Of a stretch of 64,000 nt of DNA, positions 1,344 to 30,670 are shown piece after piece. This DNA is from Saccharothrix carnea. GTDB lineage: Bacteria > Actinomycetota > Actinomycetes > Mycobacteriales > Pseudonocardiaceae. The position numbers and the translations under genes were made by a program. The stretch's first letter is position 1, and each line of letters opens with the position of its first letter. Location: the NCBI RefSeq assembly GCF_003014735.1, contig NZ_PYAX01000002.1, forward strand, positions 434,001 to 498,000, in the 5' to 3' direction. Under the pieces are notes generated by a model. It was not told the origin of the DNA and did no database searches. It saw only the letters and a list, made by a program, of their open reading frames with translations.

Positions 1344-1402
1344 CCTTGCGGTTGCCTGACGACGCCCGGAGAGGCGTTGTCCCGAAGGCGCTCCGGGTAG
1401 CC
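1344..1402 (+). promoter_or_regulatory. Tandem 11-bp operator (reverse) plus GGGTAGCC element, site 1
   Basis: Read on the minus strand, GTCAGG starts at 1360 and GCAAGG at 1349, exactly 11 bp apart. On the plus strand GGGTAGCC begins at 1395, 51 bp after the start of CCTTGC. It lies 73 nt upstream of the SPW-repeat gene at 1475. It belongs to the class described in the findings, where the repeat points away from the gene. Confidence 0.7.
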
Positions 1403-1474
1403 ATCCGGTACGAACCCGCGTAGCCGCGCTTCCGGCCACTGGTGACGAGAGACACCGATCGTGAAGGAGCACGG

Positions 1475-2017
1475 ATGACTTCCCGCATGCCACAACAACC
1501 ACCTCCCGCACGGCGGACCGACGAGCTCGACCCCATGCCGGTCACCGCACACGGTCATCAGCCGGTGGTGCCCCAGTACGGTGCGGCCCCGCTCCAGGAC
1601 ATGGCTCCGCTCTACGGCGTGCGCGAGCCTGCCGCAGCGAGCGTTGCCAGCGGCGTGGCGTTCTTGGCCGGCGTGTGGTTGGCCCTGGCACCGTTCGCCC
1701 TGGACTACGCACCTGCGGAGCAGGGCTTCGAAGGCTACTGGCACGACATCGTCGTGGGAGGCACGATCGGGCTGCTGGCCCTGGTGCGCTCCTTGGCCCC
1801 CAGTCACGTGCCGTGGCTGAGCCTGGTCAACGTCGCGCTCGGTGCGTGGCTGGTGCTCTCGCCCGTGGTGCTCGGCTACGAGCCGTGGCCGGGTTCGACC
1901 ACCGCGGCGGTGAACAACATCGTGGTCGGCGGCGTGGTGACCGCCGTGGCGCTGGTCAGCGCGTGGACGACGTACCGGACCCGCTTTGAACACCGATCGC
2001 ACGAGGGAGGGCGCTGA
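1475..2017 (+). CDS. SPW-repeat membrane protein
   Basis: Small integral membrane protein of 180 residues with two SPW-repeat units, each two helices ending in a short LAP/LSP element. Repeat 1 carries GVWLALAPFALDY and repeat 2 carries GAWLVLSPVVLGY, separated by a VPWLSLVN linker. The first ~55 residues are Pro/Gln-rich and probably cytoplasmic. The ATG at 1475 was chosen because GAAGGAG stands five bases upstream; a start 11 codons earlier lacks this. The stop overlaps the next start (TGATG), so the two SPW genes are translationally coupled. Molecular function of SPW proteins is unknown. Three other SPW genes lie in the window (2017, 18456, 25719). Confidence 0.88.
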   Translation: MTSRMPQQPPPARRTDELDPMPVTAHGHQPVVPQYGAAPLQDMAPLYGVREPAAASVASGVAFLAGVWLALAPFALDYAPAEQGFEGYWHDIVVGGTIGLLALVRSLAPSHVPWLSLVNVALGAWLVLSPVVLGYEPWPGSTTAAVNNIVVGGVVTAVALVSAWTTYRTRFEHRSHEGGR

Positions 2018-2436
2018 TGGTAGGCCAACCGTCACAGCAGTGGGCCGGGCAGCCGGCCGACGACAAGCACATGCCGCCGGCTGCCAGCGCCGCGAGCGCG
2101 GTGACGCTCCTGGCCGGCATCTGGTTGCTGCTGGCACCCTCGGTGCTCGACTACCCGGCCGGCAGCTCCGCACGCGGGCACGACATCGTGATCGGCAGCG
2201 CTCTCGCGGTCCTCGCGGTCGTCCGGGTCGTGGCACCTCGCGACGTGCCGTGGTTCAGCGTCGTCAACGTCCTGTTGGGCGGGTGGCTCGTCATGGCGCC
2301 GTTCGTGCTCGACCACATCGCCGACATCGGTGTCGCGATGGCCAACGACGTCGTTGTGGGGTTGATCGTCGTGGTGTCGGCCGCGACGAGCGCTGCGACC
2401 ACGTTCGCCGGGCGACGGCGCGCGGGTGACTCCTAG
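2017..2436 (+). CDS. SPW-repeat membrane protein
   Basis: 139-residue paralogue of the preceding gene with two SPW units (GIWLLLAPSVLDY and GGWLVMAPFVLDH) joined by VPWFSVVN, giving four predicted membrane helices and a shorter hydrophilic N-terminus. Its ATG overlaps the upstream TGA by one base, so expression should be coupled. The lipoprotein gene at 2495 follows after 58 bp in the same direction and may share the transcript. Function unknown. Confidence 0.88.
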   Translation: MVGQPSQQWAGQPADDKHMPPAASAASAVTLLAGIWLLLAPSVLDYPAGSSARGHDIVIGSALAVLAVVRVVAPRDVPWFSVVNVLLGGWLVMAPFVLDHIADIGVAMANDVVVGLIVVVSAATSAATTFAGRRRAGDS

Positions 2437-2494
2437 AACCGCCCGCCGCGGAGTCACAGGCCTGCCGGTGCTGAGAGAACGAGAGGAGTTGGTC

Positions 2495-2962
2495 ATGTCC
2501 TTGCGTCATGAGACCCGTCGGAGTGTTCGCGCGCTATTGGTGGTCGGTGCGCTGGCTGCAGTGCCGTTCACCACGGCGGCCTGTGGTGACGACGAGACCG
2601 CCGCACCGGAAACGACCACGGAAGCGGCGCAGGACGACTACTTCGCCTCGGAGGAATTCCTGGGGCGGGAGGTCACCGTGAGCGCCGTCGTCACCGCCGT
2701 GCTCGGTGACAAGTCCTTCGTACTCGACGGCTCGGAGTACGGCGACGAATCCCTGCTCGTGCTGTCCGCCGAGGAGGCCGGCGGGATGGACCTCCAGGAG
2801 GGTGACATGGTGCAGGTGACCGGGACGGTGGAGGACTTCGCCTACGCCAACTACCGCGACCAATACGGACTGATCGACGACGGTGTCTACACCACCTACG
2901 GCGACGAGGAGTTCCTGGCCGCCCACAGCGTCGAGGCGAACGTGCCGACGGAATCGAAATAA
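2495..2962 (+). CDS. Secreted lipoprotein, OB-like YFA family (copy 1)
   Basis: 155-residue lipoprotein with a cationic N-terminus, a hydrophobic stretch and a TAAC lipobox, then an acidic Thr/Glu linker. The body has a motif order shared with two other lipoproteins in the window (11006, 13625): YFAS.EFLGREVTVSAVV, YGDESLLVLS, VTGTVEDFAYANY and DQYGLID. The alternating beta pattern with a VTGTV strand resembles an OB-fold or single-strand-DNA-binding-like lipoprotein domain; this fold call is inference. The ATG at 2495 is preceded by GAGAGGAG. No catalytic residues are recognisable. Presumably anchored on the outer face of the cytoplasmic membrane. Confidence 0.85.
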   Translation: MSLRHETRRSVRALLVVGALAAVPFTTAACGDDETAAPETTTEAAQDDYFASEEFLGREVTVSAVVTAVLGDKSFVLDGSEYGDESLLVLSAEEAGGMDLQEGDMVQVTGTVEDFAYANYRDQYGLIDDGVYTTYGDEEFLAAHSVEANVPTESK

Positions 2963-3030
2963 GCCGCAGTGCCGACCTGCGGTGACAATCCGGACAACAG
3001 GCCCGGCACGGGCCGGAACAGGTGGAAGCC

Positions 3031-3537
3031 ATGGCTCGGCACGTGAGGCTTGACGCCGAGGCTACGCGTGCGTACGCCATCGTGATGCAAACCGGGGACT
3101 CTGTGGTGGAGGAACTGCTCGCGTTCGCCCGCGAACGGCAACTCCGCACCACCTCCTTCACCGCGATCGGCGCATTCAGCCGGTGCACCCTGGCGTTCTA
3201 CGATCTGGACACGAAGGAGTACCTGGGCATCCCCGTCGAGGAACAGGCGGAAGTGGTCTCGCTCGTCGGTGATGTGGTCGGCACCGATGTCGGCGATTGG
3301 CAAGTGCACGCGCATGCCGTGCTCGGCCTGTGGGACGGCACCGCCAAAGCCGGTCACCTGCGCCACGCGGTCGTGCGGCCGACGTTGGAGGTGATGCTGA
3401 CCGAGTCACCACGCGGAATGACGCGACGCTTCGACCCGGACAGCGGACTGGCGCTCCTCGACCTCGACGCAGGCGAACCGGTGACCGACCCGGACCCGCT
3501 CCGGCACGGCTTGGCCCCGGCGACCGGCGAGCACTGA
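3031..3537 (+). CDS. PPC/DUF296-domain DNA-binding-like protein
   Basis: 168-residue protein spanning one PPC (plants and prokaryotes conserved, DUF296) domain. The hallmark metal-binding cluster is visible as VHAHAVLG, followed by GHL and a C-terminal GMTRRFDPDSG. Bacterial PPC proteins form trimers binding a metal through these histidines; their role is poorly known. The ATG at 3031 follows GGTGGA by five bases; a GTG at 3022 is the alternative. It stands alone between the lipoprotein and a GH15 relic. Confidence 0.85.
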   Translation: MARHVRLDAEATRAYAIVMQTGDSVVEELLAFARERQLRTTSFTAIGAFSRCTLAFYDLDTKEYLGIPVEEQAEVVSLVGDVVGTDVGDWQVHAHAVLGLWDGTAKAGHLRHAVVRPTLEVMLTESPRGMTRRFDPDSGLALLDLDAGEPVTDPDPLRHGLAPATGEH

Positions 3538-3619
3538 CGACCAAGCCTCAGCCTTCCGACGGATCACGGCCCGGATCGGAAACACGCGCGCCGAGGCCCG
3601 CGCTCGGCGCGAGTGGCAC

Positions 3620-4286: not shown

Positions 4287-4522
4287 CGTCGCCCGTGTCC
4301 GAGAGCCGTTGCTCCCCGAGCTGATCGTAAGCCAAGCGTCAGGTCCATCGTCGCCGAACGCTGTCACGATCGGACAGGCCGCACGACGATGTGCGGCCGC
4401 CATCGGCATGCGGAGAGGGGAACGCTGTTGACGTCCGTGGGAACGCTGCCGTCCGTGGCACGTCGTGGTGCGGATCTGCGCACGCCCGGTCACCGGGCTC
4501 CCGGCGATTCCGTTCCTCGATC

Positions 4523-4708
4523 GTGACCGCCATCCCCAGCACGCAGGGCCCCGTCTCCACACTCCTGATCTGTGACAGCTGTGGCCGTGCCTACGACGGT
4601 GACACGAGCGTGCCCTGGATTGTCTTGTGGTCGGAGGCGACCGGCACGGGTTGGCAAGGCCGGGACCGCGCGATCGGACCCCACAGCTGCACCCACTGCC
4701 CGCCGTGA
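4523..4708 (+). CDS. Small zinc-ribbon-like protein
   Basis: About 61 residues with two CxxC knuckles, LLICDSCGRAYD near the middle and HSCTHC at the C-terminus, flanking a VPWIVLWSEATGTGWQGRD core. Comparable short proteins with two CxxC pairs occur in related actinomycetes; function unknown, metal binding inferred from the cysteines. The GTG at 4523 is used because the upstream translation is low-complexity and unlike protein; no good ribosome-binding site is seen, so the start is uncertain. Confidence 0.55.
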   Translation: MTAIPSTQGPVSTLLICDSCGRAYDGDTSVPWIVLWSEATGTGWQGRDRAIGPHSCTHCPP

Positions 4709-4736
4709 CCGGTTCGCCGGCGCCTGCTTCTCCTCC

Positions 4737-4778
4737 GCAAGACCATCGCAAGGTTGTGGGGTCTGGTGCCGGGTAACC
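4737..4778 (+). promoter_or_regulatory. Tandem 11-bp operator (forward) plus GGGTAACC element, site 2
   Basis: GCAAGA at 4737 and GCAAGG at 4748 are 11 bp apart, and GGGTAACC starts at 4771, 23 bp after the second half-site. The gene at 4815 follows. The repeat points toward the gene (forward class). Confidence 0.7.
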
Positions 4779-4814
4779 GCAGGGGCGGAGTCGGATCTAC
4801 GGAGGAAGGGCGAC

Positions 4815-5219
4815 ATGACGACGACGATGCCGATGCTGGAAACGTACCCCGCCGAGATCAACCTGGACCGGGCGAAGCTGGCCGCGACGATCGACGCGCT
4901 GATCGCGTGCGCGGAGGCGTGTACGGCGTGCGCGGACGCCTGCCTGAGCGAGGAGTCGGTCGCGGAGTTGACCAAGTGCGTGCGCACGAACATGGACTGC
5001 GCGGACATCTGCGGTACGACCGCGCGGGTGCTGTCCCGGCACACGGGGTACGACGCGAACATCAGCCGGGCGCTGCTGGAGGCGTGTGTGACGGTGTGCA
5101 AGTCGTGTGGTGACGAGTGCGGGTCGCACGCGGAGATGCACGAGCACTGCCGGATCTGCGCCGAGGCGTGCCGCGCGTGCGAGGCCGCTTGCCGGGACCT
5201 GTTGGCCACCATCAGCTGA
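4815..5219 (+). CDS. Four-helix-bundle Cys-rich copper-storage-like protein (DUF326)
   Basis: 134-residue cytosolic protein (no signal peptide) with regularly spaced cysteines on four helices: CAEACTACADAC, CVRTNMDCADICG, CVTVCKSCGDECG, and CRICAEACRACEAAC. This spacing is typical of the DUF326 / Csp family, whose members line the core of a four-helix bundle with thiols that bind many Cu(I) ions. The His in HAEMHEHC matches the ion entry end of the family. The ATG at 4815 follows GGAGGAAGG. It is preceded by the site-2 operator, so it is probably induced with the island. Copper storage is established for relatives and inferred here. Confidence 0.88.
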   Translation: MTTTMPMLETYPAEINLDRAKLAATIDALIACAEACTACADACLSEESVAELTKCVRTNMDCADICGTTARVLSRHTGYDANISRALLEACVTVCKSCGDECGSHAEMHEHCRICAEACRACEAACRDLLATIS

Positions 5220-5262: not shown

Positions 5263-5499
5263 TCACCCGGGCTGCGGGCCGTCCTGCGTGGACAGTGGTG
5301 CCGACTCCGTGGTGGTGCTGGTGGTCGACGTGGCGGAGGTCGTGGAGTCGGGTCGCTGGGTGACTGTCGGGGTGGTCGCCGGGGTCACCGTGGGAGTGGT
5401 CAACGGTCGTGGTTCATTCTGCGTGGTGACGCCGCAGGCGGACAGCAGCAGAAGGGCGGACACGGAGCACGCGGCGAGCAGGAGGGCGGACATTTTCAC
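5263..5499 (-). CDS. Small Ser/Thr-rich lipoprotein of the two-component operon
   Basis: 78 residues: a lipobox LLSAC after a hydrophobic segment, then a low-complexity Thr/Ser/Pro tail without recognisable domain. The GTG at 5499 overlaps the histidine-kinase stop by four bases (GTGA) and follows GGAGG at a good distance, so it is coupled as the third cistron of the regulator-kinase operon. A lipoprotein beside a sensor kinase could modulate signal input, as CseA does in the cseABC system, but no sequence relation to CseA is claimed. Confidence 0.72.
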   Translation of the reverse strand: MKMSALLLAACSVSALLLLSACGVTTQNEPRPLTTPTVTPATTPTVTQRPDSTTSATSTTSTTTESAPLSTQDGPQPG

Positions 5500-6857
5500 G
5501 GACGTGCCTCCGGGATCTCCACGATGAAGCGGGCGCCACCGCCGGGACGGTCCTCGACCCACACCGAGCCGCCGTGGCGTTGGACGTGCTGGGCGACGAG
5601 GGCCAGACCCAGGCCGCTGCCGGTGTCGGTGCCGCGGCTGCCGGCGCGGTCGCCGCGGTCGAAGCGGTTGAAGATGCGGTCGCGCAGCTCGGGCGGCACA
5701 CCCGGTCCGGTGTCGTCGACCTCCAGTCTGGCGTGGCCGTCCCGGCTGAGGACCGCGACGCGCACCGCGCCGCCTGCGTGGCGTTCGGCGTTGTCGAGCA
5801 GGTTGTTCACCACCCGGTCGAGGCGGCGGCGGTCTCCCAGGACTTGGGGGCCGGGTGGTTGGGTGCGGACGGGGACCTCGGTGCCGGGGTGGGAGTCGAG
5901 GACGTTGTCGACGAGTGAGGCGAGGTCGATGGTCTCGAGGTCTGTGTTGTCGGCCTGCTGGTCGGCGCGGGAGATTTCCAGCAGGTCGACCACCATGTCG
6001 GCGAACCGGTCGACCTCGGAGGTGAGCAGGTCCAGGGCGCGGCCGGCGGTGCCGGGGATCTCGGCGCGGCGGCGACGCAGGACCGCGGCGGCGTTGACCA
6101 TGGTGGTCAGCGGTGAGCGCAGCTCGTGGCTGACGTCGCCTGCGAACCGGGCGTCACGTAGTACTCGCTGCTCCAGGGCGTCGGCGGTAGTGTTGAACGT
6201 GGTCGCCAGGTGCGCCAGGTCCGGGTCGGTCTGCGTGGGTAGCCTGGCCTTGAGGTCGCCGCCGGCGATGCGCGAGGCGGCGGCGGTCAGCGCGGTCAGG
6301 GGTCGCAGGGCACGTCTGCTGGCCCATGAGCCCAGTGCGACGCCGAGCAGGCCGCTGACCACGACGCCGGTGATCAGCAGGACGCTCAGGAACCGGAACG
6401 TCTGGTCCAGCTGCACCAGGGGCGCGAGTTCGACGTAGGCGCCGTCAGTGGAGCTGATCGGCAGGCTGACCGCCAGCACGGGGACGCCGTCTACGACGAG
6501 CCGCTGGGAAGCCGGTGTGTCGTGGCGGCCCAGTTCCACCAATTCGTCGGGTAGGACCTGGGGGTCGACTTGCCGGCCGCTGGTCAGCACCTGTCCAGGG
6601 CGGTAGAGCAGCACGGTGGAGTCGGGCCCGGTGGTGAGGCCGGTCAGCAGGTCCTCGAGTCCGTCGGAGCCGGTGGACAGTGCCTGGTCGACGAGGCGGG
6701 CGTTGACCTCTGCTTGGCGGGTGGCGCTCTGCTCGCGCTGGCGCAGCATGTAACCGGAGGTGAGGTTCCACACCAGTATCGCGAGCGCGCTGGTGAGCAG
6801 CAGCGAGCCGATGCCCAGTACCACCGCGACCCGCCAGCGCAGCGACAGCCGGGGCAT
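5496..6857 (-). CDS. Sensor histidine kinase (HisKA/HATPase, HAMP)
   Basis: 453-residue membrane kinase. Helix 1 spans about residues 10-30, an extracytoplasmic sensor region 31-155, helix 2 about 157-178, HAMP about 178-230, then the HisKA domain with phospho-acceptor His244 in DVSHELRSPL and an ATPase domain with the N-box (NNLLDNAERH, 351-360), DDTGPGVP and GSGLGLALV. All catalytic motifs are intact. The start overlaps the response-regulator stop (TGATG), so the pair is a coupled operon. The sensor region is not recognised. Similar in layout to MtrB/CseC-type kinases; the signal is likely envelope-related given the target genes. Confidence 0.93.
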   Translation of the reverse strand: MPRLSLRWRVAVVLGIGSLLLTSALAILVWNLTSGYMLRQREQSATRQAEVNARLVDQALSTGSDGLEDLLTGLTTGPDSTVLLYRPGQVLTSGRQVDPQVLPDELVELGRHDTPASQRLVVDGVPVLAVSLPISSTDGAYVELAPLVQLDQTFRFLSVLLITGVVVSGLLGVALGSWASRRALRPLTALTAAASRIAGGDLKARLPTQTDPDLAHLATTFNTTADALEQRVLRDARFAGDVSHELRSPLTTMVNAAAVLRRRRAEIPGTAGRALDLLTSEVDRFADMVVDLLEISRADQQADNTDLETIDLASLVDNVLDSHPGTEVPVRTQPPGPQVLGDRRRLDRVVNNLLDNAERHAGGAVRVAVLSRDGHARLEVDDTGPGVPPELRDRIFNRFDRGDRAGSRGTDTGSGLGLALVAQHVQRHGGSVWVEDRPGGGARFIVEIPEARP

Positions 6858-7528
6858 CAGGTGACCGCCCGGTAGCCGACCCCGCGCACGGTGAGGATCA
6901 GTTCGGGGTCGTCGGGATTTGGTTCGACCTTGCGGCGTAGGCGGCGGATGTGGACGTCGAGCAGGCGGGTGTCGCCGAAGTAGTCGTAGCCCCAGACGCG
7001 CTGCAGCAGTTGTTCGCGGCTGACCACCCGGCCCTCGGCCGAGGCGAGTTCCACCAGCAGCCGGAACTCGGTGCGGGTGAGGTGGACCTCCTCGCCCGCG
7101 CGCAGCACCGTGCTTGTCTGCGGCTGGATCTCGAGCTCACCGAGTCCGAGGACGTCGTCGTGGCGGCCGGTGCGGCGCAGCAGGGCGCGGATGCGGGCGG
7201 CCAGCACGCTGGCCATCAGGGGTTTGGTGACGTAGTCGTCGGCGCCGGCTTCCAGTCCGGCGATGACGTCGCTCGCGTCGGTGCGGGCGGTGACGATGAT
7301 GATGGGCAGGTCGCCCTGGGATCGCAGAGTGCGGCAGACCTCCAGGCCGTCCACGCCGGGCAGCATCAGGTCCAGCAGCACCACGTCGAACGTCGCGGTC
7401 TTCAGCAGCGCCAGCGCGTCCTCACCGGAGACGGCGTCGGTGACGGTGAAGCCCTCGTCGTCGAGCGCGAGTCCGAGAGCCTGCCTGATGTGCTCGTCGT
7501 CCTCGACCAGCAGCACGGAGAGGGTCAT
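6857..7528 (-). CDS. OmpR-family response regulator
   Basis: 223 residues: receiver domain with acidic pocket VEDDE, phospho-acceptor Asp53 in LLDLMLPG, Thr80 and Lys102 (TKP), then a winged-helix DNA-binding domain from about 130 ending in LLDVHIRRLRRKVE and VRGVGYRAV. The start is the ATG at 7528 just after GAGG; longer versions reach into non-conserved sequence. OmpR-type regulators bind tandem half-sites about one helical turn apart. Fifteen such 11-bp sites lie in the first 31 kb, including one upstream of this gene (7591-7607), which makes it the leading candidate regulator and autoregulator. Confidence 0.93.
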   Translation of the reverse strand: MTLSVLLVEDDEHIRQALGLALDDEGFTVTDAVSGEDALALLKTATFDVVLLDLMLPGVDGLEVCRTLRSQGDLPIIIVTARTDASDVIAGLEAGADDYVTKPLMASVLAARIRALLRRTGRHDDVLGLGELEIQPQTSTVLRAGEEVHLTRTEFRLLVELASAEGRVVSREQLLQRVWGYDYFGDTRLLDVHIRRLRRKVEPNPDDPELILTVRGVGYRAVT

Positions 7529-7590: not shown

Positions 7591-7607
7591 GCAAGCTGAT
7601 CGCAAGG
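7591..7607. promoter_or_regulatory. Tandem 11-bp operator upstream of the response regulator, site 3
   Basis: GCAAGC at 7591 and GCAAGG at 7602 on the plus strand, 11 bp apart, 63 nt upstream of the response-regulator start on the minus strand. No GGGTAGCC-type element is visible at the usual spacing, so it may act in feedback control. Confidence 0.6.
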
Positions 7608-7630: not shown

Positions 7631-7918
7631 TCAGTGCTTGTGGTTGACCGCGAAGCGGTAGCGGCCGTCGACGTCCATGCGGACGTCCAGCAGCTTGTCA
7701 CGAAGATATTTCGCTGCGGGTGGTGCGAGGAAGATCCGGCCGCCGGTCGGCGCGGTGATCACCTCGTCCTGCGCCGCGGGGCGGGCGGCGACAGTCAGGG
7801 TGATCGACCTCCGCCCGTCCCGCTCCGACCAGCCGATCCGCAGGCTGCCACGCCTTTCGCCCGCAGTCGGAGCCAACTCGCTGATCACTGCGCCGGCCGC
7901 GTGGGTGATGTCCAGCAC
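7631..7918 (-). CDS. Cys-less HesB/IscA-like protein
   Basis: 95 residues with the overall strand pattern of the HesB/IscA family: an N-terminal AAGAVISELA helix, GSLRIG, an LTV strand and GGRIFLAPPAAKYL. It lacks the three conserved cysteines of iron-sulphur scaffolds, so cluster binding is not expected. GTG at 7918 follows GAGGGG. It lies 10 bp behind a paralogue (7929-8216), so the two form a unit. Relatives in Pseudonocardiales are equally Cys-less; function unknown. Confidence 0.75.
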   Translation of the reverse strand: MLDITHAAGAVISELAPTAGERRGSLRIGWSERDGRRSITLTVAARPAAQDEVITAPTGGRIFLAPPAAKYLRDKLLDVRMDVDGRYRFAVNHKH

Positions 7919-7928
7919 GGGGATCCCC

Positions 7929-8216
7929 TCACGCCTGGGGGTAGACGCCGAAGTGGACGCGCCCGGCGTAGCGGCGGCGCACGTCGAGCACCTTGTCCGC
8001 CAACGCCTGCGCGGCGAGAGGGTCGAGGAAGACCCGGGCGTCGCCGTGCGCGACGATCACGTCGTCGACCTCGGGATGCGGCTCGATCGACAGGTCGAAG
8101 TCCTGGTCGTGGGGCTGGGTTGTCGCCGAGATCCGCAAACCGCCCTGACGTCCCACACCGGTGGCGGTGGTCAGTTCGTCGATGGCCTGCACGGCCGTGG
8201 TGTCGATGTCGAGCAC
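7929..8216 (-). CDS. Cys-less HesB/IscA-like protein
   Basis: 95-residue paralogue of the downstream gene, with GGLRISA, an acidic loop, ARVFLDPLAAQALADKVLD and a C-terminal GRVHFGV. No cysteines at the scaffold positions. The GTG at 8216 with AAGGGG upstream gives the family's normal length. An ATG at 8390 overlaps the upstream gene's stop (ATGA) and would add 58 unusual residues, so the start is not certain. Confidence 0.72.
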   Translation of the reverse strand: MLDIDTTAVQAIDELTTATGVGRQGGLRISATTQPHDQDFDLSIEPHPEVDDVIVAHGDARVFLDPLAAQALADKVLDVRRRYAGRVHFGVYPQA

Positions 8217-8343
8217 GATCTGTCCCCTTTTCCATCGTCCGGGTCCGGTCATCATCGAGACTAGGTCGCGACCCTCGTTCGCAGACGGATCGGCGTCGCT
8301 CCGCAAGGAGATCGTCAGAATGTGGCTCAACGAGGCCGGAATC

Positions 8344-8959: not shown

Positions 8960-9044
8960 GGGTGCCCGCCGTCCGGAACGGTCGACCTTGCAATCGCCTG
9001 ACGACCGGCCGCCGCGTGCTCCGCTGTACGAGCCTCGGGTAGCC
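8960..9044. promoter_or_regulatory. Divergent tandem operator between 8941 and 9052 genes, site 5
   Basis: On the minus strand GTCAGG starts at 9002 and GCAAGG at 8991 (11 bp). On the plus strand GGGTAGCC begins at 9037, 51 bp from the start of CCTTGC at 8986, and ends seven bases before the ATG at 9052. On the minus strand GGGCACCC starts at 8967, 24 bp from GCAAGG. One operator thus appears to serve both directions. Confidence 0.7.
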
Positions 9045-9051: not shown

Positions 9052-9597
9052 ATGAACAGGATCGGCACTCTGAGCATGGTCGCGTTCGCGGCGGTCGTGG
9101 TGTCGACGTCGTGCGGTGAGCCGCAGCAGGTGCACGGGAACGGCACCGTGGGCGCCAACGCCGAGGTCGGCGACGTGGTGCTGCGGAACGTGTTCGTGCG
9201 GGCACCCGGTGACGGCGCCTATCAGCGCGGCGAGGACGCCGTGGTCCGACTGGCGATGTTCAGCCGCTCAGACCGGCCGGACGCCCTGCTCGGCGTGCGC
9301 ACGCGGAGCGCGGACCAGGTCGAGTTGCGTTCCGACACTGACTGCGACGGCACCGCCGAGACCGTGCCACGCGTCGCCGTGCCCGCCGATCGCGCCGTGG
9401 ACAGACCCGGCAGCGTGGACCCGGCCTACCAGCTGCACGTAGTGGACTTCTCCGAGGAGGTCCGCGCGGGCACCACCGTCCCCCTGACGTTCATCTTCGA
9501 GGACGCCGGCGAGATCACGGTGGACGCACTGGTCGAAACCGAAGACGACGGCGACATGCCGCCCACCCACTGCCCGACGACGACCTGGAGCCAATGA
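9052..9597 (+). CDS. PCu(A)C-like (LpqE-type) lipoprotein
   Basis: 181-residue lipoprotein with a short signal and lipobox (VVSTSC). The beta-sandwich body ([53 protein letters not shown] as separated segments) resembles PCu(A)C copper-chaperone domains, but the HxnMx21HxM copper ligands are missing, so it is an LpqE-like relative of unknown ligand. The ATG lies six bases after TAGCCG, suggesting a leaderless transcript, though GGAAGG could also serve. It is followed after one base by the protease gene. A paralogue with an extra domain is at 24737. Confidence 0.8.
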   Translation: MNRIGTLSMVAFAAVVVSTSCGEPQQVHGNGTVGANAEVGDVVLRNVFVRAPGDGAYQRGEDAVVRLAMFSRSDRPDALLGVRTRSADQVELRSDTDCDGTAETVPRVAVPADRAVDRPGSVDPAYQLHVVDFSEEVRAGTTVPLTFIFEDAGEITVDALVETEDDGDMPPTHCPTTTWSQ

Positions 9598-10912: not shown

Positions 10913-10954
10913 GCAAGCTCGCCGCAAGGTTCCGGGACCTGCCCGCGGGAAACC
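10913..10954 (+). promoter_or_regulatory. Tandem 11-bp operator (forward) plus GGGAAACC element, site 6
   Basis: GCAAGC at 10913 and GCAAGG at 10924 (11 bp), with GGGAAACC at 10947, 23 bp after the second half-site. It precedes the lipoprotein gene at 11006. Confidence 0.7.
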
Positions 10955-13522: not shown

Positions 13523-13564
13523 GCAAGGTGTTCGCAAGGTTCTCGCGTCGGTGCACGGGAACCC
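13523..13564 (+). promoter_or_regulatory. Tandem 11-bp operator (forward) plus GGGAACCC element, site 7
   Basis: GCAAGG at 13523 and GCAAGG at 13534, two perfect half-sites 11 bp apart, with GGGAACCC at 13557 (23 bp). This is the best forward site in the window and precedes the lipoprotein at 13625. Confidence 0.75.
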
Positions 13565-15097: not shown

Positions 15098-15514
15098 GTC
15101 GTTCCTTTCTGGCGGTGGCAGGAGCGCTCAGCTCTGATGCTCCTCGTGCATGACAGTCAAGAAGTGCGTGTGGACAGATCCAGCCAGGACTTCGGCTCGA
15201 CGACGGCGCAGGACAGTGCGGGATCGAAGAGTGTCCCTCTTCGGACTACCCCCGTGGGCACGCCGAGCACGGGCGAAGCCGGGAACGCAAGCACAGCGCA
15301 AGGCCCGATTCCGGCGCGGTGGCCGCGTCGAGGCCGCTGTCGACGGTGGTACCGCGTCGCACCGGCTGCCGGATCTCCGCGGGGAGTCGACTCCCGCACG
15401 ACCTGCGGTGAGGAGTCGGAGGGCCGCGCTCGAATCGCCGAGATCATTGTCACCGGTCATCATCGTGTGACCGCGAGAGCGTGACGACAGTGACCAACGG
15501 ACGGTGATGCCGAC
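15098..15514. other. Divergent intergenic region
   Basis: 417 bp between the hydrolase and antiporter genes. No convincing protein-coding frame on either strand. It holds operator site 8 and a minus-strand GGGTAG element; nothing else recognised. Confidence 0.6.
15243..15303 (-). promoter_or_regulatory. Tandem 11-bp operator (reverse class, minus-strand gene), site 8
   Basis: Plus-strand GCAAGC at 15287 and GCAAGG at 15298, 11 bp apart. On the minus strand GGGTAG starts at 15251, exactly 52 bp from the start of CCTTGC at 15303, the spacing seen in the plus-strand reverse-class sites. It fits control of the hydrolase at 15097. Confidence 0.62.
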
Positions 15515-20342: not shown

Positions 20343-20403
20343 CCTTGCGGTTGCCTGACGAGACACCACTGCACGGTCCTGCGGTGCACATCCCGGGGTA
20401 GCC
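20343..20403 (+). promoter_or_regulatory. Tandem 11-bp operator (reverse) plus GGGTAGCC element, site 9
   Basis: Minus-strand GTCAGG from 20359 and GCAAGG from 20348 (11 bp). GGGTAGCC begins at 20396, 53 bp from CCTTGC at 20343, and the TAGCCG hexamer ends six bases before the ATG at 20411. Confidence 0.72.
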
Positions 20404-21807: not shown

Positions 21808-22228
21808 GCCGTAGCGGTCGCCGGCGGGCCGCACGTCAAAACCGACCCACCGACCGCGTGATCCCCGAGCGTGGTGTCGAGCCCTTCAGTCGCGCTCGGC
21901 GGCCCGTCCGTGACTGCCTCCGGTCACGTCGGCACGAAGGGTTTTGCCGCAAAACCGGTTCGCCGGGCCCGCACGCCGGCCACGATGCCCGGCGACGCGG
22001 CGTCACGGCCACGACGGGGTGGCCGGTTCACCCACCCCAGCTCAGCGGCGTGGTAGCGGCGATGGGTGCCGTATTCAGGTGGGCCGCACCGGGTGACCGG
22101 TACCCGCTCACGGAAGCGGGTCGTGCGCCCTTGCGCTCTCCTGGCGGTGTGTTGCGACTCCGCGACCGGGCGGCACTTGCGGGTAGCCCTCGACCGACGC
22201 ACGAGGAGTCGGGAAGGAGTGGTCGGCG
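21808..22228. other. Intergenic region with A/T-rich hairpin and operator
   Basis: 421 bp without a credible gene. It contains a perfect inverted repeat at 21940-21956 (GGTTTTGC, one base, GCAAAACC), unusually A/T-rich for this DNA and possibly a terminator, and operator site 10. Confidence 0.55.
22129..22188 (+). promoter_or_regulatory. Tandem 11-bp operator (reverse) plus GGGTAGCC element, site 10
   Basis: Minus-strand GCCAGG from 22145 and GCAAGG from 22134 (11 bp); GGGTAGCC starts at 22181, 52 bp from CCTTGC at 22129. It precedes the universal stress gene at 22229. Confidence 0.68.
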
Positions 22229-23116
22229 GTGTTGAACGGTGATGTGGTGGTGGGTGTCGACGACACCGGGGTGTCGGAGCGTGCGGCCCGGTGGGCGGCC
22301 CGGCAGGCTGCGATCCTGGGGTGTGGGCTGGTGCTGGTGCACGTGGTGCGGTGGCCGCCTGGTCAACCGCTTGGCCTGCGCGTCCCGGTGGACACAGTCG
22401 AGGATCCGGTGGCGCAGCGGACCCGGGACGCGGTGGAAGGGCTCGCCGAGCGGTGCCGCGAGGCGACCGGAGTCGCGGTGCGCACCGAGATCCTGCCGGG
22501 TGACCCGGCGGAGGTGCTTGCCCGGGTCGCCGACCGGGCGGCGTTCGTCGTGGTCGGCCACTCGGATGGTGGCGGGTTCCTCCGGCTGCTGTCGGGCTCC
22601 ACCGCCGAGCGGCTGACCCGGACCTGCCCGTGGCCACTGGTGGTCGTCCGCGACGGGATCGCCGTCGACGACCGTGCCGGTGGATCGGTGGTGGCCGGTG
22701 TCGACGACTCCGCGGCCGGGGCTCGGGCGTTGCGGTTCGCGTTCGAGTTCGCCGCCCGGCAGGGCGGAGAGGTGGTCGTGGTGCACGCGACCGGTGCGGC
22801 GGCGATGACGATGCAGCCGGTGGAGACCAGCGTGCACGCCGTGCCGCACGAGGACCGCGGCGCCGTGGGGATCGCGTTGGCCGAGTGCGTCCGACGGCAC
22901 CCCGGAGTAGTGGGGGAGGTCGTCAACGCGGTGGGCTCGCCAGTGGATGCCCTGCTGGCCGCGTCCGCCAGAGCAGCGCTCCTGGTGGTCGGCAACCACG
23001 GCAAGGGGGTGGTGCGTCGGGCGTTGCTCGGCTCGGTCAGCCACCAGCTGGTCGACGAGGCACCTTGCCCGGTCGCGGTGCTCTCACCCGAGACAGCCGC
23101 GACCGATTCCGAATGA
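22229..23116 (+). CDS. Universal stress protein, two tandem Usp domains
   Basis: 295 residues with two Usp domains. Nucleotide motifs are VGHSDGGGFLRLLSGST in domain 1 and VGNHGKGVVRRALLGSVS in domain 2. Closely related to the Usp at 11964. GTG at 22229 with GGAAGGAG nine bases upstream. Monocistronic, behind operator site 10. Confidence 0.92.
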   Translation: MLNGDVVVGVDDTGVSERAARWAARQAAILGCGLVLVHVVRWPPGQPLGLRVPVDTVEDPVAQRTRDAVEGLAERCREATGVAVRTEILPGDPAEVLARVADRAAFVVVGHSDGGGFLRLLSGSTAERLTRTCPWPLVVVRDGIAVDDRAGGSVVAGVDDSAAGARALRFAFEFAARQGGEVVVVHATGAAAMTMQPVETSVHAVPHEDRGAVGIALAECVRRHPGVVGEVVNAVGSPVDALLAASARAALLVVGNHGKGVVRRALLGSVSHQLVDEAPCPVAVLSPETAATDSE

Positions 23117-24564: not shown

Positions 24565-24604
24565 GCAACCTCAGCGCAAGGTTCCGCTCCGCTGTCGAGG
24601 GAAC
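24565..24604 (+). promoter_or_regulatory. Tandem 11-bp operator (forward) plus GGGAAC element, site 11
   Basis: GCAACC at 24565 and GCAAGG at 24576 (11 bp), GGGAAC at 24599 (23 bp). It lies upstream of site 12, both before the lipoprotein at 24737. Confidence 0.62.
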
Positions 24605-24669
24605 GTCGTCGGCAGGAACGGTGGGGGAGTGCCGGCTACCGGCACCGCGCACCGCCGGACGGGCAAGGA

Positions 24670-24729
24670 CCTTGCGATCGGCTGACGGCGGGCGCACGGC
24701 GTTCCGGTCGGGGTGGTCACCGGGTAGCC
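24670..24729 (+). promoter_or_regulatory. Tandem 11-bp operator (reverse) plus GGGTAGCC element, site 12
   Basis: Minus-strand GTCAGC from 24686 and GCAAGG from 24675 (11 bp); GGGTAGCC at 24722, 52 bp from CCTTGC. The half-site is also part of the palindrome GCAAGGACCTTGC (24663-24675). TAGCCG ends six bases before the ATG at 24737. Confidence 0.7.
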
Positions 24730-24736: not shown

Positions 24737-25540
24737 ATGGACGGTTTGCGAACACCGGCGTTGTTGGGAGCGGTCCTGGTCGTAGTGGTGGGCTGTGCGC
24801 AACCCCGGGAGGAGTCGGGGAGCGGTACGACGGGCACCGACGGGCGAGTGGGCGAGGTGGTGCTGCACAACGCGGTGGTCGAAGCGCCGGCGGACGGCTC
24901 GTGGTGGCCCGGTGACGACGCCGTGGTGAGGCTGACGCTGCTCACCGGGGCCGACCGGCCGGACTGGCTGCTCGGCGTGCGCACCGACAGCGCGGCCCGG
25001 GTCGAGTTGATGGCCGACCGCGACTGCGACGGCACGAGCGAACGGGTCGACCACATCCGCCTGCCCGCCGGAGGTGCTGCGGCACCCGAGCCTGGCGGCG
25101 TCGACACGGCCCACCACCTGCGGATCGTCGACTTCACCCGCGAGGTGCCTGCGGGCACCACTGTCCCGCTGACCTTCACCTTCGCCGAGGCTGGGCAGAC
25201 GACGTTGGACGTGCCGGTGAAGACGGGCGGGGACGGTGACGTGTCGCCACCGGCCACCTGCACCCCCGGCCCGTCCCCGACAACCGGTACCACACCGGCG
25301 ACGTCATCGACCCGGCCCGCGACGGTGCTGCGTGGCCGGGTGGTGGACGGCGTGGAGCCCGGGTGCCTGGTGCTGTCCACCGACCGCGGCCAGTTCCTGT
25401 TGCTCGGTGGCGACGAGGAGGTCCTCCGGGCGGGTGCGGAGGTCGTCGTGGAAGGTACGGTCCGCCCCGGCCAGGCCACGACCTGCCAGCAGGGAACGCC
25501 GTTCGCCGTCGACGAAGCGCGAACCGCGCCGACCCGATGA
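24737..25540 (+). CDS. PCu(A)C-like lipoprotein with C-terminal OB-like domain
   Basis: 267 residues: lipobox VVGC, then an LpqE-like domain matching the protein at 9052 ([45 protein letters not shown]) and again lacking the His/Met copper ligands. After a Thr/Pro linker comes a second beta-rich module ([27 protein letters not shown]) of about 65 residues that resembles an OB-like domain. The ATG is six bases after TAGCCG, consistent with leaderless transcription. The C-terminal module distinguishes it from the copy at 9052. Confidence 0.8.
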
Positions 25541-25565: not shown

Positions 25566-25607
25566 GCAAGGTGGCCGCAAGGTTCCTGCCCGGTGGCCCG
25601 GGAACCC
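25566..25607 (+). promoter_or_regulatory. Tandem 11-bp operator (forward) plus GGGAACCC element, site 13
   Basis: GCAAGG at 25566 and GCAAGG at 25577, both perfect and 11 bp apart; GGGAACCC at 25600 (23 bp). It precedes the SPW/penicillin-binding operon. Confidence 0.74.
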
Positions 25608-25718: not shown

Positions 25719-26189
25719 ATGGGCCGATACCCGAGCGGTGAACCGGACTACCAGCGCGCCGCGCGGTTGACCGCCCGCCGGGGCGCACCGGGACCAGGTG
25801 CGGTGGTGGCGGCCGCAGGGGTGTGGCTGGTGCTCGCGCCCTCGGTCCTGGAGTACCCGGACGGCGGTGCGGTGATCAACGACGGTGTGGTCGGCGCCGT
25901 GGTTGCGATCGTCGCGATCACCGGCGCGGCGGTGCCCCGGGCCGCGTCGTGGTCGAGCGGGACGACCGCGCTGCTCGGCGTGTGGGAGGTGGCTTCGCCG
26001 TTCGTGCTCGGCCACGGCTCCGGCAGCTCGGTGGTGGCCAACCAGGTCGTGGTCGGCCTGGTTGTGGTCGTGCTGTCGCTGGCCGGTGTGGCGGTGTCGG
26101 TGGAGCGGTCGTGCTCGCGCAGCCCGATGCGGGCGAGGCCGTCCCGGTGGGAGCGGCGTCGTGCGCGGCCCCGCCGGGTGCGTCGGTGA
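25719..26189 (+). CDS. SPW-repeat-like membrane protein
   Basis: 156 residues with two SPW-like units: GVWLVLAPSVLEYPD and GVWEVASPFVLGHG, giving four helices, followed by an Arg-rich tail. Divergent from the other three copies; the linker between units reads RAASWSSGTTALL instead of PWLSLVN. ATG at 25719 was chosen since upstream residues are Arg-rich noise. The penicillin-binding gene starts 11 bp after its stop, making a two-gene operon. Confidence 0.78.
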   Translation: MGRYPSGEPDYQRAARLTARRGAPGPGAVVAAAGVWLVLAPSVLEYPDGGAVINDGVVGAVVAIVAITGAAVPRAASWSSGTTALLGVWEVASPFVLGHGSGSSVVANQVVVGLVVVVLSLAGVAVSVERSCSRSPMRARPSRWERRRARPRRVRR

Positions 26190-26200: not shown

Positions 26201-28324
26201 ATGACGCGTCTTGTGGGTCTGTGCTTGGTGGCGGGTGTGCTGTTGGCCGGGGTGCTGTTCCCGGTCGTGGGTGGGGCGGGGGTGCTGCTCGCTCGGACTG
26301 GTGATCACATCACGGGCCCGGTCGCGTTGCCCGCCGACGTCGAACCGCCGACGGTGACGACCTTGGTCGACGCCGACGGCGAGCCGTTCGCCCACCTCTA
26401 CGACCAGTACCGCGTGTTGGTGGCCTCTGACGAAATCTCCCCGGCGATGAAGGACGCCGTCGTGGCCGTGGAGGACCACCGGTTCTACGAGCACCACGGT
26501 GTGGACTGGGTGGCGACCGTGCGGGCCGCGCTGCGCAACTACGCCTCGGGTGGCGTGGTGCAGGGTGCGTCGACGCTGACCCAGCAGTACGTCAAGAACC
26601 ACTTGATCCACGTGGAGGCGCGGCACGACCCCCTGCGCCAAGCGCGGGCCCGGATGCGCACACCCGAGCGCAAGTTGCGGGAGATCCGCACGGCCGTGGC
26701 CTTGGAGAGGCGCCTGTCCAAGGACGAGATCCTGACCCGTTACCTCAACACGGTGCCGTTCGGGGCCGGGACCTACGGCGTCGCGGCGGCGGCCCGGACC
26801 TACTTCGGCACCACACCGGACCGCCTGACCGTGCCGCAGGCCGCACTGCTGGCCGCCTTGGTCAACAGCCCGGCGGCGCTGAACCCCGAGCACCACCCCG
26901 AGGCGGCCCTGCAACGCCGCAACGTCGTCATCGACCTCATGGCGCGGTACCGCATGCTGGTTCCGGAGGTGGCGGAGCAAGCCAAGCGGGAACCGCTGGG
27001 CGTGCGAACCCCGGTGCGGCCCCTGCCCAACGGGTGCGTGGGCGCCGACCCGGGACTCGGCTTCTTCTGCTCCTACGTGATCGACCACCTGCTCGCCAAG
27101 GGGCTCGACCCGGAGCGGTTGAAGACCGGCGGCTACACCGTCCGCACCACCCTGGACCGGGAGGTCAGCGCCGCCGTTGAACGGGCGGTGCGGGTGCAGG
27201 TCCCTCGCGACACCTCCGGTGTCGCCAACACGATGGCCGTGGTCGAGCCCGGCCGGGAGCGGCACGAGGTCACCGCGCTGGTGGCCAACCGCGACCACGG
27301 CCCAGACGCCGCGCAGTTCCAGACCATGCTCGACCTGCCGTCCGGGGTGTCCAACACGTTCGGCGCGGGTTCGGTCTTCAAGGTCTTCACCGCCGCCGCT
27401 GCCCTGGAGCACGGCTATGGCCCCGACTCGGTCGTCGACTCGCCCACCTCCTACACATCCCGGGTGTTCAAGGGCGGTGCGCAGGGTTGTCCGTCCACGG
27501 GTGAGCCGGACACGCGCTGGTACTGCCTGCGCAATCACAACGACGACTACCCGCCGCGCATGACGCTGCGCCAGGCCCTGGCCACCTCACCCAACACCGC
27601 CTTCGTGATCCTGGAGGAACGGGTCGGCCTGGACGCGGTGGTCGACGTGGCCCGAAGGCTGGGCATGCGCCGTACCCTGGCAAGCAATATCGCCGGTGAC
27701 GCGCCGGACCCGAACTCGCCGCGACCTGAGCTGCGGGTCGACCAGGCGGAGTTCTTCACCGGCCGGCAGAACGCCTCCTTCACCCTCGGCCCGGCCCCGT
27801 CGAGCACCCTGGAACTGGCCAACGTCGCCGCCACGATCGTCAGCGGTGGCACCTGGTGCGAACCGACACCGCTCGTCGAGGTGGTCGACCGGCACGGGCA
27901 GGTCGTGGACCTCCCGGCCTCACCGTGCGAGCAGGCCGTGCCCGAAGCGGTGGCCGACGCCCTGGCCACGGCGCTGAGCGACGACGAGGACCGCGGCACC
28001 GCCGCCCAGGCGGCCCGGCGGCACGGGTGGAGCCGGCCGATGATCGGCAAGACCGGCACCACCGAGGAGTACAAGTCCGCGGCGTTCCTCGGCGCGACGA
28101 TGGACCACGCAGGAGCGGTGCAGACGTTCAACGACAGCCCCGACCCCCGTCCCGTCTGTGTCGGGACGGGTGCGCCGAGGCTGTGCGCGAGCGGCAACCT
28201 CTACGGCGGCACCGTCCCTGCCCACACCTGGTTCGACGCCATGACGCAGATCCACGCCAACCTGCCCGCGACACCCCTCCCACCGCTCCCGCGCACCCAG
28301 CAAGCGAGCACCGGTGACGGATGA
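26201..28324 (+). CDS. Class A penicillin-binding protein (transglycosylase/transpeptidase)
   Basis: 707 residues: an N-terminal membrane anchor (about 4-30), a GT51 glycosyltransferase domain with VEDHRFYEHHGVDW and GASTLTQQYVKN, and a transpeptidase domain with the active-site Ser391 in GSVFK, the SPN motif at 463, and KTG at 617. It polymerises and cross-links peptidoglycan outside the membrane. Shorter than housekeeping PonA proteins and without PASTA repeats. ATG at 26201 follows GAGGGGAACG. The operon with an SPW protein under site 13 suggests stress-conditioned wall synthesis. Confidence 0.94.
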   Translation: MTRLVGLCLVAGVLLAGVLFPVVGGAGVLLARTGDHITGPVALPADVEPPTVTTLVDADGEPFAHLYDQYRVLVASDEISPAMKDAVVAVEDHRFYEHHGVDWVATVRAALRNYASGGVVQGASTLTQQYVKNHLIHVEARHDPLRQARARMRTPERKLREIRTAVALERRLSKDEILTRYLNTVPFGAGTYGVAAAARTYFGTTPDRLTVPQAALLAALVNSPAALNPEHHPEAALQRRNVVIDLMARYRMLVPEVAEQAKREPLGVRTPVRPLPNGCVGADPGLGFFCSYVIDHLLAKGLDPERLKTGGYTVRTTLDREVSAAVERAVRVQVPRDTSGVANTMAVVEPGRERHEVTALVANRDHGPDAAQFQTMLDLPSGVSNTFGAGSVFKVFTAAAALEHGYGPDSVVDSPTSYTSRVFKGGAQGCPSTGEPDTRWYCLRNHNDDYPPRMTLRQALATSPNTAFVILEERVGLDAVVDVARRLGMRRTLASNIAGDAPDPNSPRPELRVDQAEFFTGRQNASFTLGPAPSSTLELANVAATIVSGGTWCEPTPLVEVVDRHGQVVDLPASPCEQAVPEAVADALATALSDDEDRGTAAQAARRHGWSRPMIGKTGTTEEYKSAAFLGATMDHAGAVQTFNDSPDPRPVCVGTGAPRLCASGNLYGGTVPAHTWFDAMTQIHANLPATPLPPLPRTQQASTGDG

Positions 28325-28394
28325 GCCGCGACTCGCGGTCCCGTGGAGGCGGACATGCTCCACCAGAGGTGACTCGTGGGACGACCCGGGGATC

Positions 28395-29615: not shown

Positions 29616-29709
29616 GGGCTCCAGTCCTCCCGGCACCCGGCCGGGGATCGCGCTGAACGGGGCACGAACCCCCGGTACCCGCCAGGTGGTCGGCCAACCG
29701 GCCGGACAA

Positions 29710-29758
29710 CCTTGCGATTGCCCGACGAGCCGCACCCAGGGCGACAGCGCGGGTAGCC
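29710..29758. promoter_or_regulatory. Tandem 11-bp operator in divergent promoter, site 14
   Basis: Minus-strand GTCGGG from 29726 and GCAAGG from 29715 (11 bp). On the plus strand GGGTAGCC begins at 29751, 41 bp from CCTTGC, one helical turn closer than in other reverse-class sites. On the minus strand GGGTACC lies 35 bp from GCAAGG. Confidence 0.62.
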
Positions 29759-29794
29759 AGGCTGTGCACCCGACCTCGAGAACAGGAGCCGTCG

Positions 29795-30388
29795 ATGTTC
29801 CACAAGACCACTCGAACGTGTGTCCTGGCCGCTGCGTCGTGCCTGGCCTTGACAGTGCTGGGCGGCTGCGGTTCCGGCACGGCCGACGAACCGGCCACCG
29901 TGCCGCCGACGTCGAACGCCCTGGGGGCGGACCCACCGCGCAGCCTCGGGGACGCCGAGCAGTGCCTGACCGCCGGGCTGCGCGTCCACCTCGGTCCCGG
30001 CAACAATGACATGCAGGGTGCCCACCTGCCCCTGCGGTTCACCAACACCGCCTCACAGCCGTGCACCCTCCAGGGCGCGCCGGGGGTCTCCTACGTCACC
30101 GGCGAGGGCGGGGAGCAGGTCGGCCTGCCGGCCGAGCGCGACACCGACGGCCCAGTGGTGACCCTGGCACCCGACGAGACCGCGTCCGCGCCTCTGCTGC
30201 TGTCCAGCGCGCCGCGGAAGACTCCCGACTGCGAGCAGGTCCAGGTCGGTGGGCTGCGGGTCTACCCGCCGAACAACACGGAACCGGTGTTCGTCGAGCA
30301 GGGTGCCACCGCATGCGCACCGCCGCTCGACGGCCCGTTCCTGGAGGTCGGCCCGGTCCGACCGGGAGCCGACAGCACCGGGACCTGA
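29795..30388 (+). CDS. DUF4232 lipoprotein
   Basis: 197 residues: lipobox LGGC, a Pro/Thr linker, then a DUF4232 beta-sandwich with LPLRFTNTASQPCTLQGAPG, VTLAPDETASAPLLLS and the paired cysteines typical of the family (CTLQG with a late C). ATG at 29795 follows AGGAG. Surface-anchored; function unknown. It stands behind site 14. Confidence 0.85.
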   Translation: MFHKTTRTCVLAAASCLALTVLGGCGSGTADEPATVPPTSNALGADPPRSLGDAEQCLTAGLRVHLGPGNNDMQGAHLPLRFTNTASQPCTLQGAPGVSYVTGEGGEQVGLPAERDTDGPVVTLAPDETASAPLLLSSAPRKTPDCEQVQVGGLRVYPPNNTEPVFVEQGATACAPPLDGPFLEVGPVRPGADSTGT

Positions 30389-30422
30389 CACCGGACCACA
30401 CGTCCGGCGTGGGCCGCATCGA

Positions 30423-30442
30423 GGCCGACCGCACGGTCGGCC
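30423..30442 (+). terminator. Terminator-like hairpin after DUF4232 lipoprotein
   Basis: Perfect 8-bp arms GGCCGACC and GGTCGGCC with the loop GCAC, 35 bp after the stop. Confidence 0.5.
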
Positions 30443-30653
30443 GTGCCGTCGGTGCCCAACGGGACGCGTGCCGTGCGGAGGCGCACAGTCGGTGGGGGTG
30501 CTTGTGGTGGTCGACAACGGGGGCGAGGCGTGGCTCCCTGTTCCGACTGATCCGAGGTGGTGCACGTCCGCAGGTGCGGTGGCCTGCTCACCGGCGCGGC
30601 GCAGCGCACCCCGGTGACGGTGGGATCGGAGAATCCGAACGGGGAGGAACCGT

Positions 30654-30670
30654 GCAAGGTGATCGTCAGG
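30654..30670 (+). promoter_or_regulatory. Tandem 11-bp operator, site 15
   Basis: GCAAGG at 30654 and GTCAGG at 30665, 11 bp apart, about 95 nt upstream of the ATPase gene. No GGGTAGCC-type element at +23. Confidence 0.45.

Follow-up and report, generated by a model that had tools for sequence, protein, structure and literature searches.

Repeat pairs in a gene island of Saccharothrix carnea as the predicted operator of an OmpR-family two-component system

Results

The locus and its repeats

A 64,000-nucleotide stretch of the Saccharothrix carnea genome (G000:C2:434001-498000 of 8.92 Mb; hereafter the window) carries the genes of a sensor histidine kinase and an OmpR-family response regulator, together with genes for a 61-aa Cys-rich protein, a DUF326 copper-storage-like protein (below the NCBIfam Csp1 cut-off) and two PCuAC copper-chaperone lipoproteins. 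The subject of this report is a pair of direct hexamer repeats, 11 bp apart, that recurs before genes of this region. According to family searches, the genes behind the pairs also include SPW membrane proteins, a weakly Ycf48-like propeller, a Na+/H+ exchanger, a penicillin-binding protein (PBP) and further lipoproteins; the labels hydrolase (15097-14279), HtrA-like and first antiporter are readings of the sequence itself. We argue that the pairs are probably (at roughly 0.8) the operator of the two-component system at 5496-7528, which would control its own gene and an island regulon. Labels of the form G0xx or G1xx denote genomes, and L0xx or L1xx fetched loci.

Sites were called when each half-site was GCAAGG or GTCAGG, with at least 11 of the 12 letters matching and the half-sites 11 bp apart. 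The commonest form is ATCGCAAGGTGATCGCAAGGTT, GTCAGG being the alternative half-site. By this rule the window contains 15 sites, the last at 30654, and none in 31.5-64 kb, in agreement with a preliminary description of this DNA that had placed such pairs in the first 31 kb and seen none from 31 to 64 kb. The loose pair GCAAGG-N5-GCAAGG, with up to two mismatches, gave 16 matches in the window (14 within the first 31 kb) against a mean of 5.4 and a maximum of 13 among 100 dinucleotide shuffles of the 64 kb. The cluster itself is larger than was described: it starts about 15 kb upstream of the window, at C2:419116 (seven sites in locus L032), measures roughly 45 kb, and includes additional sites at 4327, 8303 and 8344.

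Site density in C2:414001-465500 (22 sites in 51.5 kb, or 0.43 per kb) was about 15-fold higher than in 20 random stretches of the same genome totalling 400 kb (11 sites, 0.028 per kb), and the flanks of the island, 72.5 kb including window positions 31.5-64 kb, had no site at this threshold. Scattering at chance density, the outcome that would have spoken against an island-wide regulon, was thus not what we found. The excess is limited to a gap of 11, island sites at gaps 8-10 and 12-15 numbering only 1-4 each, and a control pattern with a 12-bp period matched the genome nine times, never inside the island. A direct repeat with a period of 10-11 bp is the kind of operator that OmpR/PhoB-family regulators bind. 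The exact pair occurs four times in the genome, three times in the cluster and once in the promoter of a paralogue of the regulator on contig 11 (C11; 82% identical).

The regulator gene and its own promoter

The product of 6857-7528, which the preliminary description had put forward as the regulator, has the two domains of the OmpR/PhoB family (PF00072, 108.4 bits; PF00486, 108.7 bits), and its nearest solved structures are MtrA (PDB 2gwr) and RegX3. It scored below the NCBIfam equivalog cut-offs for MtrA (260.9 bits vs 300), for CseB (241.5 vs 350) and for the heavy-metal Cop/Czc/Sil systems (TIGR01387, 181.5 of 279.2 bits; TIGR01386, 184.4 of 292.55 bits). Many genus genomes contain separate homologues of about 49% identity to it. 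Regulator and kinase genes also stand side by side in G152, G161, G159, G162, G051 and G088.

Two lines of evidence tie the pair to this gene. First, among 51 homologues of at least 60% identity with the locus at hand (at least 51 exist), 31 have a pair scoring at least 11 no more than 250 bp from the gene's start, oriented away from it in all 31, and 39 have one scoring at least 10. Shuffled upstreams of the first 32 loci reached 11 in 2 of 640 cases, and two loci below 60% identity scored 9. Place and orientation of the operator are identical in G143 and G154, and a -10-like nAnnnT hexamer lies 28 nt from the pair in 12 of 22 regulator promoters (expected 0.43). Secondly, a homologue of at least 75% identity is present in 23 of 25 genus genomes (own genome counted), all 23 of which have a site by a stringent pattern (80 sites). 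The two genomes lacking the homologue, G166 and G167, have none; with 27 reversed-pattern controls across the 25 genomes, about one per genome, these two zeros are weak by themselves, and we count this against the case. The placing of the hits is the stronger evidence: of seven stringent hits counted here in the own genome, six are in the island and one precedes the paralogue.

Seven homologues from outside the family (58-66% identity) scored at most 10 of 12 upstream, one of them with only 66 bp of upstream sequence, and the operator is therefore not claimed there. Upstreams of L115, L117, L118 and L119 show GTCACG/GTCATG-type or mixed 11-bp repeats, also in reverse orientation, at 9-10 of 12; the GTCACG-type halves are in L115, L117 and L118. 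This hints that the autoregulatory layout may be older than the GCAAGG half-site.

The island regulator of G088 (G088:C1:7453339-7453880, L053) has a shorter frame and aligns at just 64%, next to a kinase 92% identical to that of the window, and its own operator has decayed to GCGAGC/GCGAGG; this regulator may be losing function.

Promoter elements and geometry

At 4737, 10913, 13523 and 25566 the element GGGWA starts 17 nt past the pair, that is, 23 bp from the second half-site, and the weaker pair at 24565 has GGGAACGT at that same distance, so that all five forward cases in the preliminary description are accounted for. Its six reverse cases were recovered as well, with GGGTA 34-36 nt past the reversed pair (51-53 bp) at 1344, 8986, 15287, 20343, 22129 and 24670. 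The minus-strand element reported at 8991 is present as GGGCACCC behind 8986, and a second case was not seen. At 29710 the octamer GGGTAGCC lies at 41 bp.

Strict composites of pair and element matched the own genome four times in forward and three times in reverse form, always inside the island, with no reversed-pattern control match for either. In a scan of 150 family genomes, with the own genome included, five had the forward composite, and its controls matched twice in total. When 76 sites from eight genomes were pooled, GGGWA stood at the forward 17 nt in 10 (expected 0.08) and at the reverse 33-36 nt in 16 (expected 0.32), counts that should be taken as guides, and to that extent weaken the case, since related and orthologous promoters are not independent.

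All 16 of these reverse promoters, from the own genome, G143 and G152, have the octamer GGGWANCC (one of them as GGGTAGTC), and in 11 of the 16 a start codon, ATG or GTG, follows exactly 7 nt after it. Promoters with this spacing look leaderless. Were transcription to start on that codon, the T and A within the octamer would stand at -12 and -11, where a -10 element is normally found. Both the forward 23-bp and the reverse 51-53-bp elements accordingly look like promoter -10 elements rather than a further regulator site. No column of the 33 nt preceding the octamer rose above 0.66 bits in the 16 reverse promoters, in which we looked for a -35. We take GGGWA to be the -10 motif of sigma-B/F, whose promoters have a GTTT-like -35; the -10 was found (16 reverse and 10 forward of the 76 sites) and the -35 was not.

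Some promoters have a housekeeping-like nAnnnT -10 instead of GGGWANCC. Before the genes at 8219-7631, for example, TAGTCT lies 39 nt past the reversed pair; G088 has the same hexamer and offset, and G143, G162 and G159 have similar ones. Taken over both types of -10, the distance from the pair is 20-21 nt in forward promoters and 27-28 or 36-39 nt in reverse ones, with rarer forward distances of 32 and 42-43 nt as special cases. The first half-site goes with orientation (Fisher 1e-4): all 10 of 10 forward promoters have the GCAAGG type there, and 12 of the 15 reverse promoters that could be typed have the GTCAGG type, a further reverse promoter giving a tie.

Islands in relatives

The geometry was already defined when the islands of four relatives, G152, G161, G159 and G162, were retrieved. 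Of the 32 island proteins queried, 17 have homologues in G152, where their genes lie in a different order, along with those of regulator and kinase, within about 28 kb. Both geometries are kept there (forward 17 nt at 2 of the 16 sites, reverse 33-35 nt at 7). That genes change places and yet retain operator and spacing is, in our view, the strongest sign of what would be a working regulon. In G088 the site at 4327 has a counterpart (L053:11210), and the succession of operator, SPW gene and PBP gene that begins at 25566 is repeated. The two offsets of the 29710 site to GGGTA (24 and 29) recur before homologues in G051, which belongs to another genus, at two separate sites.

The small Cys-rich protein

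No Pfam family matched the 61-aa Cys-rich protein at an E-value of 0.05. A forward operator pair scoring at least 11 lies upstream in 25 of the 29 distinct homologues within the fetched loci, and shuffled upstreams gave the same score in 1 of 580. These loci are not a random set, many having been fetched for a site or a regulator, and one operator was counted for both genes where they diverge, as they do in several genomes. Of the 25 promoters, 21 have an nAnnnT hexamer 42-43 nt past the pair, and 14 have a further one at 21 nt. A CsoR-type gene follows the Cys-rich gene in L180 and L188, with an HMA gene next in L188; CsoR-like and HMA genes in relatives stand behind a solitary site.

Upstream of the Cys-rich genes a stretch about 42-60 nt past the operator recurs, with an nAnnAT hexamer often followed by GGGTGCA. 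It is probably the -10 and start region; an RNA element is also possible.

Features along the window

The predicted operators and the neighboring features are collected in Table 1. Two adjacent genes in 7631-8219 encode proteins of about 95 aa that resemble each other. The first protein had no Pfam or NCBIfam match; homologues of both occur in the fetched islands of G088, G143, G159 and G162.

Table 1. Putative operators, -10 elements and associated genes of the window, with relatives of the Cys-rich protein
Feature	Position	Strand	Putative -10 or basis
Operator, reverse class, before SPW gene 1442-2017	1344..1360	-	
-10 octamer of the 1344 promoter	1395..1402	+	GGGTAGCC
Weaker operator (10/12), forward class, before Cys-rich protein gene	4327..4343	+	CACGAT 4365-4370
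61-aa Cys-rich (CxxC...HxCxxC) protein	4523..4708	+	
Cys-rich family members	window 4523-4708; L032:17193-17372; L180:4145; L186:4115; L188:4224		
Operator, forward class, before copper-storage-like (DUF326) gene 4815-5219	4737..4753	+	
-10 octamer of the 4737 promoter	4771..4778	+	GGGTAACC
Sensor histidine kinase, proposed cognate	5496..6857	-	Pfam HAMP, HisKA, HATPase_c; adjoins regulator gene
OmpR-family response regulator, proposed island regulator	6857..7528	-	Pfam receiver and Trans_reg_C
Operator before regulator gene, reverse relative to it	7591..7607	+	
Operator, reverse class, before minus-strand genes 8219-7631	8303..8319	+	TAGTCT, minus strand, 8263-8258
Operator, reverse class, before PCuAC lipoprotein 9052-9597 and next gene 9599-10603	8986..9002	-	
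-10 octamer, ATG 7 nt further (leaderless reading)	9037..9044	+	GGGTAGCC
Operator, forward class, before lipoprotein 11006-11494	10913..10929	+	GGGAAACC 10947-10954
Operator, forward class, before lipoprotein ending 14113	13523..13539	+	GGGAACCC 13557-13564
Operator, reverse class, for minus-strand gene 15097-14279	15287..15303	+	GGGTAGTC, minus strand, 15251-15244
Operator, reverse class, before weakly Ycf48-like gene 20411-21757	20343..20359	-	GGGTAGCC 20396-20403, ATG 7 nt on
Operator, reverse class, before Usp 22229-23116	22129..22145	-	GGGTAGCC 22181-22188
Weaker operator, forward class	24565..24581	+	GGGAACGT 24599-24606
Operator, reverse class, before PCuAC lipoprotein 24737-25540	24670..24686	-	GGGTAGCC 24722-24729, ATG 7 nt on
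Operator, forward class, before SPW 25719-26189 and PBP 26201-28324	25566..25582	+	GGGAACCC 25600-25607
Operator with two candidate promoters	29710..29726	-	Reverse for DUF4232 lipoprotein 29795-30388, one turn closer; forward for minus-strand antiporter
Operator, forward class, before HATPase-fold protein 30763-31167	30654..30670	+	CAGACT 30692-30697

Discussion

At the level of sequence, the predicted operators, their geometry, their conservation and their link with the regulator gene are demonstrated. We propose that the regulator, once phosphorylated, would occupy the two half-sites, 11 bp apart, as a head-to-tail dimer, would control its own gene through the predicted operator, and would activate a stress and copper-handling regulon packed into about 45 kb. 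At forward promoters, where the pair faces the gene, 20-21 nt separate it from the -10, so that its centre would lie at about -41 in a class II-like position. At reverse promoters it points away, with the -10 27-28 or 36-39 nt off, and the centre would be at about -49 or -59, as in class I. Given a GGGWANCC -10 without a conserved -35 at many island promoters, dependence on an activator is probable, and many transcripts would begin on the start codon. It is the agreement of orientation and distance with PhoP, discussed below, together with the association between half-site and orientation, that leads us to read the sites as activator sites.

In the most serious competitor, the main reader of the operator is a different OmpR-type protein, the C11 paralogue, or a pool shared by both regulators, the island regulator being a recent copy; we consider this possible and somewhat unlikely. 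The exact pair before the paralogue would suit it. So would the 18 of 23 genus genomes that have only homologues below 89% identity, 14 of which have the pair at the examined locus, as well as the island sites of G088, which are present despite the short island regulator and its decayed own site. However, the clusters of the own genome, G152, G161 and G159 include a regulator gene of the island regulator's subfamily, and the window-type regulators of the own genome, G143 and G154 retain the pair.

Repression instead of activation seems improbable to us. The forward sites do overlap the -35 region, where polymerase could be blocked, but the reverse sites at about -59 lie upstream of its usual contacts, a strong -35 was not seen, and most distances are near the activating positions of PhoP. 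A mixture of activation and repression is possible.

The forward composite (GCAAGG, 17 bp, GGGWANCC) is very unlikely to be the plain -35/-10 promoter of an alternative sigma factor that needs no activator. The GGGWA -10 resembles the sigma-B/F type, and 17 bp is a normal spacing between -35 and -10. Yet the pair is found in reversed orientation too, 36-39 nt from the -10, the enrichment concerns two half-sites at exactly 11 bp, and the pair precedes an OmpR-family regulator gene whose -10 type differs; we rejected this reading because it leaves the reversed sites and the strict 11-bp period unexplained. GGGAACC as a -35 of the extracytoplasmic function (ECF) type was also discarded, no CGTC-like -10 being seen by eye at the forward sites. 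Finally, SPW, Usp and lipoprotein genes are duplicated within the island, so that some promoters may be copies, but dispersal of a mobile or low-complexity element with no regulatory role is scarcely credible when operator and -10 are alike and the intervening sequence is not, and when operators remain before re-ordered genes in G152.

Several observations weigh against control of the island by this two-component system. The loose pair is not enriched genome-wide (702 matches vs 1617 for the reversed-pattern control); what counts is the clustering. A pair scoring at least 11 is lacking within 250 bp in 20 of the 51 regulator homologues, one of which has only 19 bp upstream; L062, a 91% relative, scores only 8, and the regulator promoter of the window has no recognisable -10 at 28 nt. 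About 115-120 kb separate the six-hit clusters of G143 and G154 from the window-type regulator gene, and the paralogue may read the same sites. As to geometry, 50 of the 76 pooled sites have GGGWA at neither offset, and the same holds for all 19 sites of G161, G159 and G162. The strict reverse composite occurs, of the 150 family genomes, in the own genome only (controls, none), and a forward match in G127 has neither a pair scoring at least 11 nor an island homologue in the 60 kb around it. A reversed PhoP box at 28 nt gave little expression in the excerpted study (PMC3335776), yet 28 nt is the commonest distance in the regulator promoters here. Our best guess at the signal is copper or envelope stress, read from gene content alone, which weakens the argument for copper in particular.

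On balance the preliminary interpretation, an OmpR-family operator with an island-wide regulon, was mostly right and is supported by the comparative evidence, as what would be a new regulator, operator and regulon built on a known OmpR-family grammar, in an island with many copper and envelope-stress genes. An apparently uncharacterised actinobacterial two-component system thereby gains a predicted operator, autoregulatory site, regulon and promoter geometry from sequence alone. Beyond that, the system would allow the PhoP rules of orientation and distance to be tested independently, in a different phylum and perhaps with a different sigma factor, and the recurrent Cys-rich partner, like the copper genes, suggests a directly testable signal. 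Among the literature matches listed (titles and starts of abstracts; open-licence PMC papers) the operator is not described. As far as these searches show, four things are new: the pairing of this regulator with its predicted operator, the proposed regulon in the island, the GGGWANCC promoters with their apparent lack of a leader, and the Cys-rich small protein as a partner.

Among known systems, PhoP is an OmpR-family activator, and SARP proteins have an OmpR-type DNA-binding domain. MtrA of actinobacteria, the closest solved and curated relative of our regulator, likewise uses two direct repeats of five to six bases, five apart, whereas its half-sites are G/T-T-G/A-A-C-C and G-T-G/T-A-C-N (PMC5650626, in excerpt). 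SARP operators such as that of PimR have CGGCAAG heptamers with 4-bp spacers, hence an 11-bp period, and a similar CAAG core; they differ in having three repeats (in PimR), in belonging to an antibiotic cluster and in being read by a protein that has no receiver domain (PMC3367932, in excerpt). A SARP regulon was rejected on the last point, the regulator here having a receiver. CutRS and CssRS of Streptomyces are similar as two-component stress systems that control HtrA-type proteases, but CutR binds TAWATAAA, unlike the repeat described here (PMC12802291, in excerpt). MprA was set aside too, its Corynebacterium motif as excerpted, TKTTAAGAAM, being different from our operator, as was CrsR of Actinosynnema, a NarL-family protein with no motif known from the excerpted source.

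The closest parallel is Salmonella PhoP, and the claim in the preliminary description that no regulon with this layout had been described was too strong, for a layout of orientation by distance has been both described and tested there. According to the excerpt of that study (PMC3335776), PhoP works direct at 12, 23 and 33 nt and reverse at 27, 37 and 48 nt from the -10, each place accepting one orientation; direct sites at 21-22 nt give about a quarter of full expression, and box variants go with promoter architecture. Both systems thus have a two-hexamer box in 17 nt, direct or reverse at discrete distances, with half-site variants that match the architecture. The distances here (forward 20-21, reverse 27-28 and 36-39 nt) agree with those of PhoP (direct 21-23, reverse 27 and 37 nt) within 1-2 nt, though not exactly. 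Differences lie in the half-site, (T/G)GTTTA in PhoP and GCAAGG/GTCAGG here; in the -10, sigma-70 in PhoP and often GGGWANCC here; in the forward 42-43 nt, seen here and not among the working places of PhoP in that excerpt; and in the clustering of targets here in one island, in a different phylum. A tentative extension, which we regard as speculative, is that OmpR-family activators share one such code across phyla, in which forward sites have a common helical register, reverse sites are shifted from it by about half a turn, and each orientation has its matching half-site variants. The present actinobacterial family would then have evolved such promoters, often leaderless, on a non-housekeeping GGGWANCC -10, and would keep its regulon as an island open to re-ordering, each gene travelling with a cassette of operator and promoter, around the regulator and a small Cys-rich protein with a possible role in sensing or modulating copper.

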